NCBI RefSeq assembly: GCF_030817355.1 | Contig: NZ_JAUSZH010000001.1 | Location: 6,386,501 to 6,450,500 of the forward strand | Origin: Streptomyces sp. V1I1 | GTDB taxonomy: Bacteria; Actinomycetota; Actinomycetes; Streptomycetales; Streptomycetaceae | Length of the DNA: 64,000 nt | Direction: 5' to 3' | Part shown: piece by piece, positions 1,156 through 39,997 of the stretch | Position numbering within the stretch: the stretch's first letter is position 1 | How the letters are laid out: each line of letters starts with the position of its first letter | Made by a program: the position numbers and the translations under genes | Notes under the pieces: generated by a model | What the model saw: only the letters and a program-made list of their open reading frames with translations | Told to the model about the DNA's origin: nothing | Database searches by the model: none

Positions 1156-1181
1156 CCCCGTCCGCCGTCGTGCGGACGGGG
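1156..1181 (+). terminator. Terminator hairpin after the DUF7873-like gene
   Basis: CCCCGTCCGC at 1156-1165 pairs perfectly with GCGGACGGGG at 1172-1181 around a six-base loop. It lies 12 nt after the stop codon. It separates this gene from the permuted tRNA-like RNAs, which therefore probably have their own promoter or arise by readthrough. Confidence 0.8.
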
Positions 1182-1224
1182 TGCGCGAGGAGCGCAAGCT
1201 GAAACTGAAGCTTGTCGTGACTGA

Positions 1225-1310
1225 GCGGTTCCAGTGGAGGTTCGAGTCCTCCCCGCGGCACTTTCCGTACGTACGGGCCGCGGTAGCCCAACTCGGCAGA
1301 GGCAGACCGC
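1225..1310 (+). ncRNA. Circularly permuted tRNA-like gene 1 (3' half, 16-nt linker, 5' half)
   Basis: In transcript order the 3' half comes first. It holds the anticodon-stem strand CGGTT (1226-1230), a 5-nt variable loop (1231-1235), a T-arm GGAGG-TTCGAGT-CCTCC (1236-1252), the acceptor strand CCGCGGC (1253-1259) and discriminator A1260. After a 16-nt linker containing the palindrome CCGTACGTACGG comes the 5' half: acceptor GCCGCGG (1277-1283), T8 A9, a D-arm with G18 G19 (1286-1303) and anticodon-stem strand GACCG (1305-1309). All 7 acceptor pairs are Watson-Crick, and 5 of 5 anticodon-stem pairs form (one G-U), plus an extra C1310-G1225. The D-stem has three pairs and one C-A mismatch. The anticodon loop would have to be made by joining the outer ends. 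Neither flank supplies an obvious U33, so no anticodon is assigned. Function and processing are unknown. Confidence 0.7.
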
Positions 1311-1385
1311 GATCAATCTCAGACTATTGCTCCAGACTCAGCATTCGCCGCCGATCGCCGGATCGACCGGGCCCGGGCCCTGGTG

Positions 1386-1454
1386 CGTCGAAATGCCGGT
1401 TCAAGTCCGGCCCGCGCAGCTCGATGTGCGGTGGTCCAAAGGCAGGACGCGGCG
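1386..1454 (+). ncRNA. Circularly permuted tRNA-like gene 2 (3' half, 5-nt linker, 5' half)
   Basis: This has the same permuted layout 75 nt downstream. The 3' half has anticodon strand CGTCG (1386-1390), variable AAAT, T-arm GCCGG-TTCAAGT-CCGGC (1395-1411), acceptor CCGCGCA (1412-1418) and discriminator G1419. The linker is only CTCGA (1420-1424). The 5' half has acceptor TGTGCGG (1425-1431), T8 G9, a D-arm GTCC-AAAGGCA-GGAC (1434-1448) with a perfect 4-bp stem, G26, and anticodon strand CGGCG (1450-1454). All 7 acceptor pairs and all 5 anticodon pairs form, with one G-U each. The base sequence differs from gene 1, so this is a second tRNA type and not a local duplication. ACATAA follows the 5' half, so a CAU-like triplet is near the expected loop, but U33 is absent. 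Confidence 0.68.
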
Positions 1455-1512
1455 ACATAACGACTGACTCGGGTTCTCAAGCGTGCCGGTGTGCGACATG
1501 GGCGGCATCACA

Positions 1513-1543
1513 GGGCTCGGGGGCCGGCTACGCCCCCGGGCCC
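1513..1543 (+). terminator. Strong hairpin between the permuted tRNAs and the cupin gene
   Basis: GGGCTCGGGGGC (1513-1524) pairs with GCCCCCGGGCCC (1532-1543) around a 7-nt loop, 12 bp with one T-G. It is positioned to end the tRNA-like transcript before the gene at 1625. Confidence 0.6.
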
Positions 1544-4676: not shown

Positions 4677-5906
4677 TCAGCCACACCGCGGCAGCCCGGG
4701 CAGCCGGTCCGTCCGCACCACCTGGATCACCGATCGCGATCCGGCCGACTTCGCATCGCCCCTGCTGTGCGCGATCGCGAGCGCGCCGTCCCTTGCCTGG
4801 GCGTAGCCGTACCGAGGAGTGATACGCGAGTACGCCGCCGAGCGGAGATCGAGGGCGTATGCGGCCTCCGGCGTACGCCAGGTGATCAGGTCACCGCTGA
4901 TGCGCAGCTGGTCGATCCCTTCCGCCGCGGCCGCGCCGCCCGTCACTCTGGCGACGGGTGCGGGCTGTCCCGTACGCCACACCATCAGCGTCGGCTGCTG
5001 CTCGCCCGCGATCCACGCCCAGGTGGTGCCGTCCGAGACCGGCGAGCGGAAGTCGCGCAGCTCAGCGAGCGGGGCGGGGAGCGGGACCGCGCGCAGTGTC
5101 GCGAACGACAGCGCCCGCAGACGGGTGGCCGTGCCGGACGCGTCGGCCTCGCGCCAGGCGAGCAGCCCGCCCGCGGGGAAGGGCGCGTCGAGGACGCCGG
5201 TGTGCAGGGTCCGGGGTGCGCCGCCGGTTGCGGGGGCCGCGCGGACGGCGGCCTTTCCGCCGCCCGTTCCCTGCGCCCAGAAGACGGTTCCGCCGCGTAC
5301 GACGGGCTGGGGCAGCGGTCCCGGCAGCCCGCCGGAGCGGGCGAGCACACGGGCGCGGCCGGTGCGCTCGTCCCAGACGTGAAGGGTCCAGGGGCTGCCG
5401 AGCGTACGGCCTTCGAGCACCGCGAAGGCGGCCCACCGGCCGTCGAAGTCGGCGCTGAGGAGTTGGTGTTCGACGGGGTCGGCGAAGTCGAGCAGGGTGC
5501 GCGGGGTGTGTGGGGAGCGGCCGTCCTGGATCAGGGCGGCCCGTCGTCGCCGGTCGCCGGATAGCTGCACGGCGGTCCAGCGGGCCCCCGGCCCCACCTC
5601 GGTGAGGACGGGCCGCTCGCCTGCCGGGGCCCGGAGCTCACCGGCGGCGAAGGCGGTACGCCAGCCGGCGGGCAGGGGGACTTCGCAGGCGGCGGCCGGA
5701 GGCGGGGTGGTTGGCTTCGTGGTCGGCGCCGGCGCCTTCGTGGGGGCGGGCTTCGGGACGGGCTTCGGGACGGGCTTCGGGACGGGCGTCGAGGCGGACG
5801 TCGGGGTGGGCGCGGGAGCCGGCGAGCATCCGGTGAGAGCGATGCCCGCCAGCAGTGCCGCACACGCGGCCGTACGAAGGGGCCGGGACCTACCAGACGT
5901 ACCCAC
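4677..5906 (-). CDS. Lipoprotein with Lys-Pro repeat linker and beta-propeller-like domain
   Basis: Read from GTG 5906, the protein has a lipoprotein signal peptide ending LAGIALTGC (Cys about 27). A proline/lysine/threonine-rich linker follows (VPKPVPKP repeats). After it comes a 300-residue Ser/Gly/Trp-containing domain with repeated ALVxW-like strands, reminiscent of a TolB-type propeller. It should be anchored outside the membrane. Its first codons overlap the last 17 nt of the protease gene upstream, so the two are probably co-translated. The true start is uncertain, because in-frame codons extend to 5963. Function is not recognised. An accessory role to the protease is an inference from overlap. 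Confidence 0.65.
   Translation of the reverse strand: MGTSGRSRPLRTAACAALLAGIALTGCSPAPAPTPTSASTPVPKPVPKPVPKPAPTKAPAPTTKPTTPPPAAACEVPLPAGWRTAFAAGELRAPAGERPVLTEVGPGARWTAVQLSGDRRRRAALIQDGRSPHTPRTLLDFADPVEHQLLSADFDGRWAAFAVLEGRTLGSPWTLHVWDERTGRARVLARSGGLPGPLPQPVVRGGTVFWAQGTGGGKAAVRAAPATGGAPRTLHTGVLDAPFPAGGLLAWREADASGTATRLRALSFATLRAVPLPAPLAELRDFRSPVSDGTTWAWIAGEQQPTLMVWRTGQPAPVARVTGGAAAAEGIDQLRISGDLITWRTPEAAYALDLRSAAYSRITPRYGYAQARDGALAIAHSRGDAKSAGSRSVIQVVRTDRLPGLPRCG
5748..5795. repeat. 12-nt tandem repeat within the lipoprotein gene
   Basis: GGGCTTCGGGAC occurs at 5748, 5760 and 5772, with a fourth diverged unit at 5784. It encodes the Lys-Pro-Val-Pro linker repeats on the minus strand, so linker length may vary between strains. 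Confidence 0.85.
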
Positions 5907-6786
5907 GGCCGCCCATGATCGTGGTGATGGTGTCGGAGGAGATCCGCGCCGACTTGGGCACACTGCCCGCCCAGGAGATGACGCTGGTGCTCACCCCGCC
6001 CACCGGGTCGAGGTAGTTGACCTGTCCGGCCGACGTGTCGCTGTTGTACCCGTCGATCGCGACCCAGTGGAAGATCTCGATGTTGGGATGGCCGACGAGA
6101 TGCGGCCCGCCCGGCACCTCCCAGGCGTTGCCCGCGATCGCGTAGTCGTTGCCGGTGTTGTGGACGATGTGCTTCTTGAAGTTCGTCTTGTCCGTGGCGG
6201 TCGGGGTGTAGGGCAGCGCCTTGGGTACGTAACCCGCCCCGGGCAGCCGGTTGTTGAGTGCGTCGGCGACCGGATAGCCGGTCGGATTCGGCACATTGAT
6301 GTTGATGCCGTACCAGGCGGTGCCGCTGGAGTTGGTCTTGAGGAGCGTCGCGGCGCTCTGCTGTGAGCGGCCCGCGACCTCGTCATGGGCGGACTGCGCG
6401 ATGACGAGGGTGGCGGGGCCACACCAGTAGGAGGTCTTCTGCGACTGGTGCAGCCCGCCGGAGAGTACGTATCCGGCTTGCGCCGAGCGGGTGGAGACGC
6501 CTTGGCTCTCGTACGATCTCGCCGCATCCGCCTGCTTCCTGGCGGCGAGTCTGCGCTGCTCGGCGGTGAGCTTCTGCGGTCCGAGGGTGTCGTGGGCGGC
6601 TTTGTACGAAGCCCCGGGGACGGGCTCGGTGTTGGTGTTCTGGGTGGCGGTGGTGTTCGCGGTGGTGTCAGTGGTGTTCGGGGTGGCGGTGGTGGCTGCT
6701 GTCGCGGGTGCTGCGAGGGTCAGGGCCGCGGCCAGACCTGTGACGGCGGTGAGGGCGAGACAGCGCCCGGTGAGCTGTGCCGGCAT
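5890..6786 (-). CDS. Secreted C39-like cysteine peptidase
   Basis: Read from ATG 6786 (AGGAGAG upstream), the 298-residue protein has a Sec signal peptide (ending APATAA) and a Thr/Asn-rich low-complexity stretch to about residue 55. A peptidase C39-like domain follows. The catalytic Cys is in SYWCGPATL (about residue 122), the His in IFHWVAIDGYN, and the acidic residue in YLDPVGG. Such domains cleave peptides or amide bonds outside the cell. It precedes and overlaps the lipoprotein gene. Substrate is unknown. Confidence 0.78.
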   Translation of the reverse strand: MPAQLTGRCLALTAVTGLAAALTLAAPATAATTATPNTTDTTANTTATQNTNTEPVPGASYKAAHDTLGPQKLTAEQRRLAARKQADAARSYESQGVSTRSAQAGYVLSGGLHQSQKTSYWCGPATLVIAQSAHDEVAGRSQQSAATLLKTNSSGTAWYGININVPNPTGYPVADALNNRLPGAGYVPKALPYTPTATDKTNFKKHIVHNTGNDYAIAGNAWEVPGGPHLVGHPNIEIFHWVAIDGYNSDTSAGQVNYLDPVGGVSTSVISWAGSVPKSARISSDTITTIMGGRGYVW

Positions 6787-10261: not shown

Positions 10262-11131
10262 ATGCAGGGGACTGTCGACGGATTCAGTTACGGCCTCGTC
10301 ACACCCGTGGCGGCCTACATGATGGCGTGCCTCGGCGGGGCCCTCGGCCTGCGCTGCACCACCAGATCCATCCGCAACGGGCGCTCCTTCAAGCCGGGCT
10401 GGCTCGCCCTGGGCGCGACTGCCATCGGCTCGGGCATCTGGACGATGCACTTCATCGCGATGATGGGCTTCACCGTCGCGGAGGCCCCCATCGGCTACGA
10501 CAGAGCGACGACCTTCGCCAGCCTGGCGGTCGCAATCGTCATGGTCGGCATCGGGATCTTCATCGTCGGATACCGCGGCGCGACCCCCATGGCCCTGGTC
10601 ACCGGCGGCACGATCACCGGCCTGGGGGTGGCCTCCATGCACTACCTCGGCATGGCCGGAATGCGACTGCAGGGACGCCTCGAGTACGACACCCTGACCG
10701 TCGTACTCTCCGTCGTCATCGCCGTCGTGGCCGCCACCTCGGCACTCTGGGCGGCCGTATCGGTCCACGGCTTCCTGGCGAGCCTCGGGGCCAGCCTGGT
10801 GATGGGCATCGCCGTGAGCGGCATGCACTACACCGGGATGGCGGCGGTCAGCGTCCATCTGCACGGGGCGGCCGGCACAGGCGACTCGGCCGCCAGCCTC
10901 CTCGCGCCCATGCTGATCGGCCCGGTGGTCTTCCTGCTCATCGCCGGAGTGGTGGTGATGTTCGACCCGCTGCTCGTCATGGGAGCGCCGGACTGGCAGC
11001 GGGCCGCCCAGGGGGTTCCCGCCCGCCCCGGAGTGCCCGCGCAGCGCGCCGGGCAGCGGCAGGGACAGCCCGCGGCCTGGGCCGCCGACCGGTCCCCTCG
11101 CCGGGGCGCGCCGCGGTCCGGCGACTGGTGA
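10262..11131 (+). CDS. MHYT-domain integral membrane sensor protein
   Basis: The 289-residue protein has about seven transmembrane helices. The three MHYT-type motifs near the outer face are WTMHFIAMMG, SMHYLGMAG and GMHYTGMAA. In this family the Met/His residues are proposed to bind copper and sense a diatomic gas. No output domain (GGDEF, EAL or kinase) is fused. The C-terminal 45 residues are Pro/Arg/Gln-rich and disordered. Start ATG 10262 (MQGTVDG) is chosen over longer frames because the AAGGAG/GAAGGG region lies upstream. Confidence 0.85.
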   Translation: MQGTVDGFSYGLVTPVAAYMMACLGGALGLRCTTRSIRNGRSFKPGWLALGATAIGSGIWTMHFIAMMGFTVAEAPIGYDRATTFASLAVAIVMVGIGIFIVGYRGATPMALVTGGTITGLGVASMHYLGMAGMRLQGRLEYDTLTVVLSVVIAVVAATSALWAAVSVHGFLASLGASLVMGIAVSGMHYTGMAAVSVHLHGAAGTGDSAASLLAPMLIGPVVFLLIAGVVVMFDPLLVMGAPDWQRAAQGVPARPGVPAQRAGQRQGQPAAWAADRSPRRGAPRSGDW

Positions 11132-11161
11132 GTGCCTGAGGCCACAGCGGATCGCCCCCGG

Positions 11162-39726: not shown

Positions 39727-39760
39727 TCGTCTATTTCAGTCCGAGGAAGTTGGTCCAGCC

Positions 39761-39997
39761 GTGATTATGGGGTTTTCGATCGCCCTGATCGTCTTCAGCC
39801 TGCTGATGCTGCTGCTGGTGCTGATGCACAAGGGGAAGGGCGGCGGCCTCTCCGACATGTTCGGTGGCGGTATGCAGTCCTCAGTAGGCGGCTCCTCGGT
39901 CGCCGAGCGCAACCTCGACCGCATTACGGTGGTCGTCGGTCTGCTGTGGTTTGCGTGCATTGTCGTACTTGGGCTGCTGATGAAGCTGGACAGCTGA
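39761..39997 (+). CDS. secG: Preprotein translocase subunit SecG
   Basis: The 78-residue protein has two transmembrane helices (IALIVFSLLMLLLVLM and ITVVVGLLWFACIVVLGLLM). They are joined by the characteristic Gly-rich loop KGKGGGLSDMFGGGM. SecG assists SecYEG in protein export. GTG 39761 is the start (VIMGFSIAL), with GAGGAAG about 13 nt upstream. Its position after tpiA is conserved. Confidence 0.93.
   Translation: MIMGFSIALIVFSLLMLLLVLMHKGKGGGLSDMFGGGMQSSVGGSSVAERNLDRITVVVGLLWFACIVVLGLLMKLDS

Follow-up and report, generated by a model that had tools for sequence, protein, structure and literature searches.

Two circularly permuted tRNA-like arms in a ~400-nt candidate non-coding RNA located downstream of DUF7873 genes in Streptomyces and phages

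Introduction

Among known RNAs, the one closest in kind to that described here is YrlA, a bacterial Y RNA and an established case of tRNA mimicry by permutation. According to one report, the structure of a bacterial Y RNA (6CU1) superposes on those of tRNAs when a circular permutation is allowed for (PMC11472068). A second report states that Deinococcus Rsr is tethered to PNPase by Y RNA, and that the tRNA-like domain of YrlA might inhibit anticodon nuclease (PMC7790460). Y RNAs have also been reported from phages (PMC12282133). A preliminary description of the window, by which we mean the whole 64-kb stretch of Streptomyces DNA analysed here, had stated that no bacterial case of a permuted tRNA was known; for tRNA-like RNAs this is wrong, as the account of Y RNA 6CU1 makes clear (PMC11472068). 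The RNA family reported here shares with YrlA (RF02553; 6CU1) a permuted tRNA-like domain that is entered via the anticodon end and has a loop-closed acceptor stem. It differs from YrlA in that it is ~400 nt long and carries two modules on another scaffold, has DUF7873 and not Ro60 as its neighbor, scores below the Rfam threshold, and encodes CCA in half of its phage and viral modules.

Other known systems are similar in part. In algae and archaea, circularly permuted tRNA genes likewise have their 3' half ahead of the 5' half, with a short linker in between; here, in contrast, U33 is not conserved, the anticodon stem continues into conserved helices, and the host is a bacterium or a phage. 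Two-piece tmRNA also has a permuted gene and a tRNA-like domain that is opened at the acceptor end, but the DUF7873-linked RNA has two tRNA-like arms. GOLLD and ROOL resemble it in being large structured phage RNAs near tRNA genes; unlike these, it is not covered at gathering thresholds by any Rfam family in the window and 16 related loci. In the literature covered by our search we found no description of the DUF7873-linked RNA, no mention of DUF7873 or PF25283, and no paper in which "Y RNA", "Streptomyces" and "Ro60" occurred together. The RNA family thus appears to be undescribed and, together with a candidate protein partner, joins the few RNAs that mimic tRNA by permutation.

Results

The preliminary description had proposed that tRNA parts occur twice in a row in swapped order on the + strand of the window. 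Both units are indeed permuted tRNA cloverleaves, in which the 3' half lies upstream of the 5' half in tRNA register. Unit 1 (1225..1310) consists of an anticodon strand, a T-arm and the acceptor 3' strand (1253-1259), followed after a linker (1260-1276) by the acceptor 5' strand (1277-1283), a D-arm and the second anticodon strand. The order is the same in unit 2 (1386..1454), where the acceptor 3' strand, the linker and the acceptor 5' strand occupy positions 1412-1418, 1419-1424 and 1425-1431, respectively. All the pairings that had been listed for the two units are present where they had been placed. Thus, in unit 1 the acceptor strands pair 7/7, the T-stem 5/5 and the anticodon stem (1226-1230/1305-1309) 5/5, the latter extending to 6 bp when 1225/1310 is added; in unit 2 the acceptor stem pairs 7/7 including one G-U, the T-stem 5/5, the D-stem 4/4 and the anticodon stem 5/5. 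The claim that both units fall in standard tRNA register is supported overall, except that the D-stem of unit 1 is off standard, having only 3 bp and a 13.22 mismatch (GCCC/AGGC). The D-arm of this unit, GCCC(AAnnGGnAG)AGGC, has a form that we take to be typical of tRNA-Leu.

A strict descriptor (T-arm, acceptor stem 7/7, U8, D-arm with GG, anticodon stem and a linker of 3-59) retrieved units 1 and 2 as its sole matches in the 64-kb window and none on the opposite strand. No matches were obtained on one strand of 100 block-shuffled windows, which supports the double occurrence of the swapped order. As had been predicted for ordinary tRNA finders, neither ARAGORN nor Rfam at gathering thresholds, tmRNA (RF00023) included, gave a match in the window, and the region is not distinguished by folding energy alone (z -0.83). 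A looser descriptor (acceptor stem 6/7, linker up to 159) gave two extra, weaker matches in the window, at 10947-11157 and 39760-39874; they are missing in the strict scan and are probably due to chance.

Directly upstream of the RNA lies a gene encoding a DUF7873 protein (PF25283; 413..1144, + strand; Pfam E 1.6e-121). Its start is probably the GTG at 413, which gives the N-terminus MAKLNQII found in homologues, and not position 404 as assigned by the ORF lister. Among 7999 scored candidates, 7077 were DUF7873 homologues. The protein is not basic (pI 6.25), and its structure, predicted from 20 sequences (pLDDT 90, pTM 0.74), gave no significant or convincing fold match.

The distribution of the RNA closely follows that of this gene. 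DUF7873 is present in 70 of 150 Streptomyces genomes; in agreement with the conservation in related genomes that the preliminary description had proposed to look for, BLASTN with the RNA region as query (1130-1480) gave matches in 73 of these 150, including the window's own genome. Both were present in 69 genomes (Fisher p 1e-36). In the sole genome with DUF7873 but no BLASTN match to the RNA (G010), the second module and the scaffold motifs are readable behind the gene, and the four genomes with an RNA match but no DUF7873 gave weak matches (E 7.8e-5 to 7.2e-4). In a phylum-wide sample of 296 genomes DUF7873 was found in six, all of them Streptomyces (one of 198 genera). We then scanned up to 1.3 kb downstream of DUF7873 genes with the strict descriptor. 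A module was found in 148 of 163 unique loci, i.e. in 80/80 from Streptomyces, 1/1 from Nonomuraea, 8/9 from named phages and 59/73 viral loci. Upstream of the gene a strict module was found in 1/163 loci, some upstream flanks being shorter than 1.3 kb, and one was found in antisense orientation, also in 1/163.

The two units are probably arms of a candidate RNA of ~400 nt that spans positions about 1150-1555 behind the DUF7873 gene and would lie on the same transcript. Its conserved scaffold reaches from a 10-bp hairpin (1156..1181, + strand), probably the start of the RNA, whose stem, judged by eye, is kept despite sequence changes in aligned Streptomyces loci, to a GC-rich hairpin (1513..1543, +), probably its end, which by eye is conserved in 30 aligned loci and might act as a terminator. 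Unit 1 is enclosed by an outer helix formed by 1198..1220 (+) and 1319-1342 (+). The latter strand is the first part of the central scaffold (1311..1371, +), which contains the conserved motifs TTGCTCCA and ATCGACCG. This helix is 100% paired and nearly invariant, so that its support comes from conservation and not from covariation. Unit 2 is enclosed by an outer helix between 1372..1377 and 1468..1473 (both +) which does covary, showing two-sided changes in 4/6 pairs in Streptomyces. In eight aligned loci (L024-L031) a shorter hairpin takes the place of the tRNA-like part of unit 1 while the outer strands are kept, and in 30 of the 80 named Streptomyces loci the strict descriptor found a single module, indicating that the scaffold is conserved whereas the arm formed by unit 1 can be replaced. 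Scaffold motifs were also found in the 33 two-module phage and viral loci. These were picked post hoc, after the sequences had been read, and their counts were therefore judged against shuffles: TYGCTH between the modules occurred 23 times (2.6 expected), ATCGA 16 times (2.1 expected) and TTAAAY 3' of module 2 24 times (1.9 expected).

Compensatory changes in the stems, which had been proposed as a check, were seen for both units in Streptomyces. For unit 2, 99.1% of the cells in an alignment of 30 sequences were paired, with two-sided changes in 11/27 pairs. On four of the five measures no shuffle out of 500 equalled this, and on the fifth 3/500 did; shifting the partner by one column lowered pairing to 35-40%. 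For unit 1 (21 sequences) 99.3% were paired and 5/35 pairs showed two-sided changes, but in the number of further pair types shuffles were as good in 282/500 cases. The variants in the unit 1 acceptor stem do change jointly with the downstream strand.

A covariance model built from Streptomyces unit 2 plus its outer helix was used to search 55 of the 83 non-Streptomyces loci. Matches with E ≤0.01, down to 4e-12, were obtained for 40 of these 55 phage, viral and Nonomuraea sources. In a second run, 38 sources at E ≤2e-5 gave 36 aligned matches (the window, Nonomuraea, three from named phages and 31 viral). These modules were 97.2% paired, compared to 61.8% in shuffles, and showed two-sided changes in 26/27 pairs, including all six of the outer helix, in an alignment that was fitted to the structure and therefore leans towards it.

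Two features that were not among the search criteria fit a true tRNA-like three-dimensional fold, as predicted from sequence. The first one is the Levitt pair 15-48. We sorted the modules into two types according to their D-arm, the unit-1 type being defined by an unpaired 13.22 with A22; these types track module order in most loci. In the 53 phage and viral modules of unit-2 type the pair is A-U in 32, G-C in 21 and other in none, and in those of unit-1 type it is A-U in 44/47. The second one is the placement of CCA. In 50 of the 100 phage and viral modules CCA occurs at linker offset 1, corresponding to positions 74-76, and at any other linker offset from 0 to 8 it occurs in 0-2 each. CCA is encoded in Streptomyces in 1/80 units 2 and 8/50 units 1, and the linker of unit 2 has 6-7 nt in the aligned set; short linkers and the rarity of CCA make an opening at the acceptor end doubtful in this genus.

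Position 33 is U in 14/47 and 19/53 of the phage and viral modules of the two types, and in 1/130 Streptomyces modules. Since U33 lacks conservation and the anticodon stem extends into the outer helix, which covaries for unit 2, the units are very unlikely to be decoding tRNAs. Together with the 30/80 loci that have a single module, this argues against the reading of the preliminary description, in which they would be tRNA genes with the two halves reunited at the anticodon loop.

By tblastn, DUF7873 was found in 73 phage records, comprising phages of Vibrio, Gordonia, Rhizobium, Klebsiella, Serratia, Arthrobacter, Pseudanabaena, Rhodococcus and Microcoleus, and in four records of a plasmid collection, one of them chromosome-sized. 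In seven of nine phage regions about 410-1160 nt without any annotated feature follow the 3' end of the gene; a short ORF is annotated at this place in Fryberger and Vibrio K479. The gene lies within a tRNA array in Mimi, Phendrix, NiceHouse and Rhizobium TM21B. The viral loci were taken from IMG/VR; 80 were fetched and seven duplicates were dropped, leaving 73 unique ones. The strict module was absent behind DUF7873 in the Microcoleus phage (one of the nine named phages) and in 14 of the 73 viral loci. The covariance model recovered six of the viral misses (L095, L109, L113, L143, L146 and L149) and linkers of >60 nt another two (L098 and L116), and in the other six (L089, L115, L123, L132, L135 and L151) no module was found by strict descriptor, model or longer linkers. 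The RNA modules of L149 (3168-3406) are located upstream of DUF7873, and the module of L146 (5473-5581) is on the strand opposite to it; these are rearranged gene and RNA pairs, which indicates that the tie between gene and RNA survives rearrangement.

Among the 16 related loci that were searched with Rfam at gathering thresholds, tmRNA (RF00023) was found only in that of Gordonia phage Phendrix, where it occupies an unannotated gap before a tRNA-Arg gene (L065:1063-1591), away from the RNA.

Discussion

Comparative sequence data support the predicted tRNA fold of the modules and its tertiary contacts, their tie to DUF7873 and their spread to phages. Of what had been proposed for this locus, the permuted order, the tRNA register, the conservation and the compensatory changes stand; that the units are tRNA genes with rejoined halves is not supported. 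What had been overlooked is that they form parts of one longer candidate RNA tied to DUF7873. We consider it fairly probable that the units are arms of a single ~400-nt non-coding RNA located 3' of the DUF7873 gene, which would serve as a tether or decoy that plugs the DUF7873 protein into tRNA metabolism. Each arm would present a tRNA elbow and an acceptor stem, entered where the anticodon loop would sit, and its anticodon stem would continue into the helices of the scaffold. The DUF7873 protein and the RNA may form a ribonucleoprotein, in which the protein would be a putative RNA binder. The arms could attract tRNA-binding factors, as is thought for the tRNA-like domain of bacterial Y RNA. 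Where CCA is encoded, tRNA-processing enzymes might open the linker and so generate a mature tRNA-like 3' end. Through such contacts the RNA would link DUF7873 to tRNA metabolism as a tether or as a decoy. The close linkage of gene and RNA could alternatively reflect a 3' UTR element.

The family is shared by phages whose hosts differ widely and by 70 of the 150 Streptomyces genomes sampled. DUF7873 thereby gains a first testable role. It also becomes testable why phages keep tRNA mimics in their tRNA arrays, and whether there is a Ro60-free counterpart of Ro60-Y RNA particles.

A bolder version of this proposal, which we put forward tentatively, is that DUF7873 and its RNA constitute a separate class of ribonucleoprotein of phages and Streptomyces, in which a scaffold RNA displays two tRNA mimics; their acceptor ends would be opened, provided with CCA and possibly charged with amino acids, so that the particle, although it lacks an anticodon, would enter pathways of tRNA or aminoacyl-tRNA.

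Unlikely, in our opinion, is a pure decoy, in which tRNA mimics without an anticodon loop would occupy tRNA-cleaving or tRNA-sensing enzymes and thereby shield phage or host tRNAs. The position of the phage copies in tRNA arrays would fit such a role, and it has been suggested for the YrlA tRNA-like domain (PMC7790460). However, a decoy leaves the constant DUF7873 neighbor and the conserved scaffold motifs unexplained.

It is rather unlikely that the RNA is an ordinary bacterial Y RNA of the YrlA type, i.e. a partner of Ro60/Rsr, although the permuted layout is identical, both having a permuted tRNA-like domain. The best weak Rfam match of unit 1 is to YrlA (full model, 23 bits, E 0.022), and the two DUF7873-linked modules of viral contig L058 score 28.4 and 20.1 bits with this model, the higher score (E 0.0018) being that of the second module; these values for unit 1 and L058 are, however, below the YrlA gathering score of 69. 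Ro60 matches were obtained in some DUF7873 phages (3/25 and 3/18 records), and Deinobacterium chartae, the only genome with DUF7873 among 14 controls, is also alone in having TROVE. On the other hand, the RNA of the window is not encoded with or near Ro60 (TROVE), and no TROVE match was obtained in the window's 99.7% complete genome. Across the 150 Streptomyces genomes the presence of TROVE is not associated with that of the RNA (both in 41, TROVE only in 39, RNA only in 32, neither in 38; Fisher p 0.52), and no TROVE was found in 37 of 43 tested phage and viral records, many of which are fragments. Moreover, in L058 it is the YrlA-like RNAs that lie beside the Ro60 match, ~1 kb apart from the DUF7873 RNA.

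We regard as improbable that the modules are processing signals only, at which RNase P and tRNA 3' enzymes would cleave the DUF7873 mRNA or process its 3' end. Their location directly behind the DUF7873 stop codon and the encoded CCA of phages are in line with this, but two modules, a conserved scaffold and outer helices exceed the needs of a processing signal, and the linkers of Streptomyces unit 2 are short and capped.

It is very improbable that the units are genuine circularly permuted tRNAs which are joined at the anticodon loop and take part in translation. In favor of this are the swapped order and full tRNA register, the CCA encoded by 50 of the 100 phage and viral modules, the phage copies within tRNA arrays and the occurrence of a gene for RtcB ligase in the genome to which the window belongs. 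Joining would, however, not create an anticodon loop bearing a conserved U33, it is the outer helix that covaries instead, and RtcB was found in just 2/25 phage and viral records, which makes a general ligation step unlikely.

That the units are leftovers or side products of ordinary tRNA genes, i.e. halves of tandem tRNAs or an ordinary tRNA using an upstream strand, can practically be dismissed: ARAGORN does overlap 35 of 232 modules (34 Streptomyces, one viral), but its drawings have broken stems in two of three cases (L082 and L203), the permuted stems and pair 15-48 covary over wide distances, and the unit 1 acceptor variants follow the downstream strand. What ARAGORN calls in 34 of the 80 Streptomyces orthologues is an ordinary tRNA that borrows the 3' half of unit 1, whose acceptor 3' strand is in many Streptomyces also able to pair with a strand of the upstream hairpin. 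In the drawing for L159 the acceptor and anticodon stems are complete, but the "anticodon" has four bases; this well-paired cloverleaf indicates that in some species the 3' half of unit 1 could fold alternatively with the upstream strand. A permuted match is also given by two tandem tRNA-Asn genes of the window's genome (L239:1476-1627), in which the 3' half of the first tRNA-Asn is combined with the 5' half of the second; it shows how a permuted module could have arisen.

Viral contig L058 contains three further permuted tRNA-like units at 4980-5650 (below gathering for YrlA, E 2e-6 to 5e-4), together with a similar enclosure that lacks a tRNA part; as judged by eye, a long closing stem surrounds each of them. 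They precede a Ro60 (TROVE) match at about 6399-6635 by some 0.8 kb, and have the appearance of a group of true Y RNAs, at a distance of about 1 kb from the DUF7873 RNA. In addition, 80 of the 150 Streptomyces genomes have large ORFs with a short TROVE match, mostly of about 63 positions, the listed matches spanning about 60-75 model positions. These ORFs possibly encode divergent Ro60 proteins, with a distribution unrelated to that of the DUF7873 RNA.
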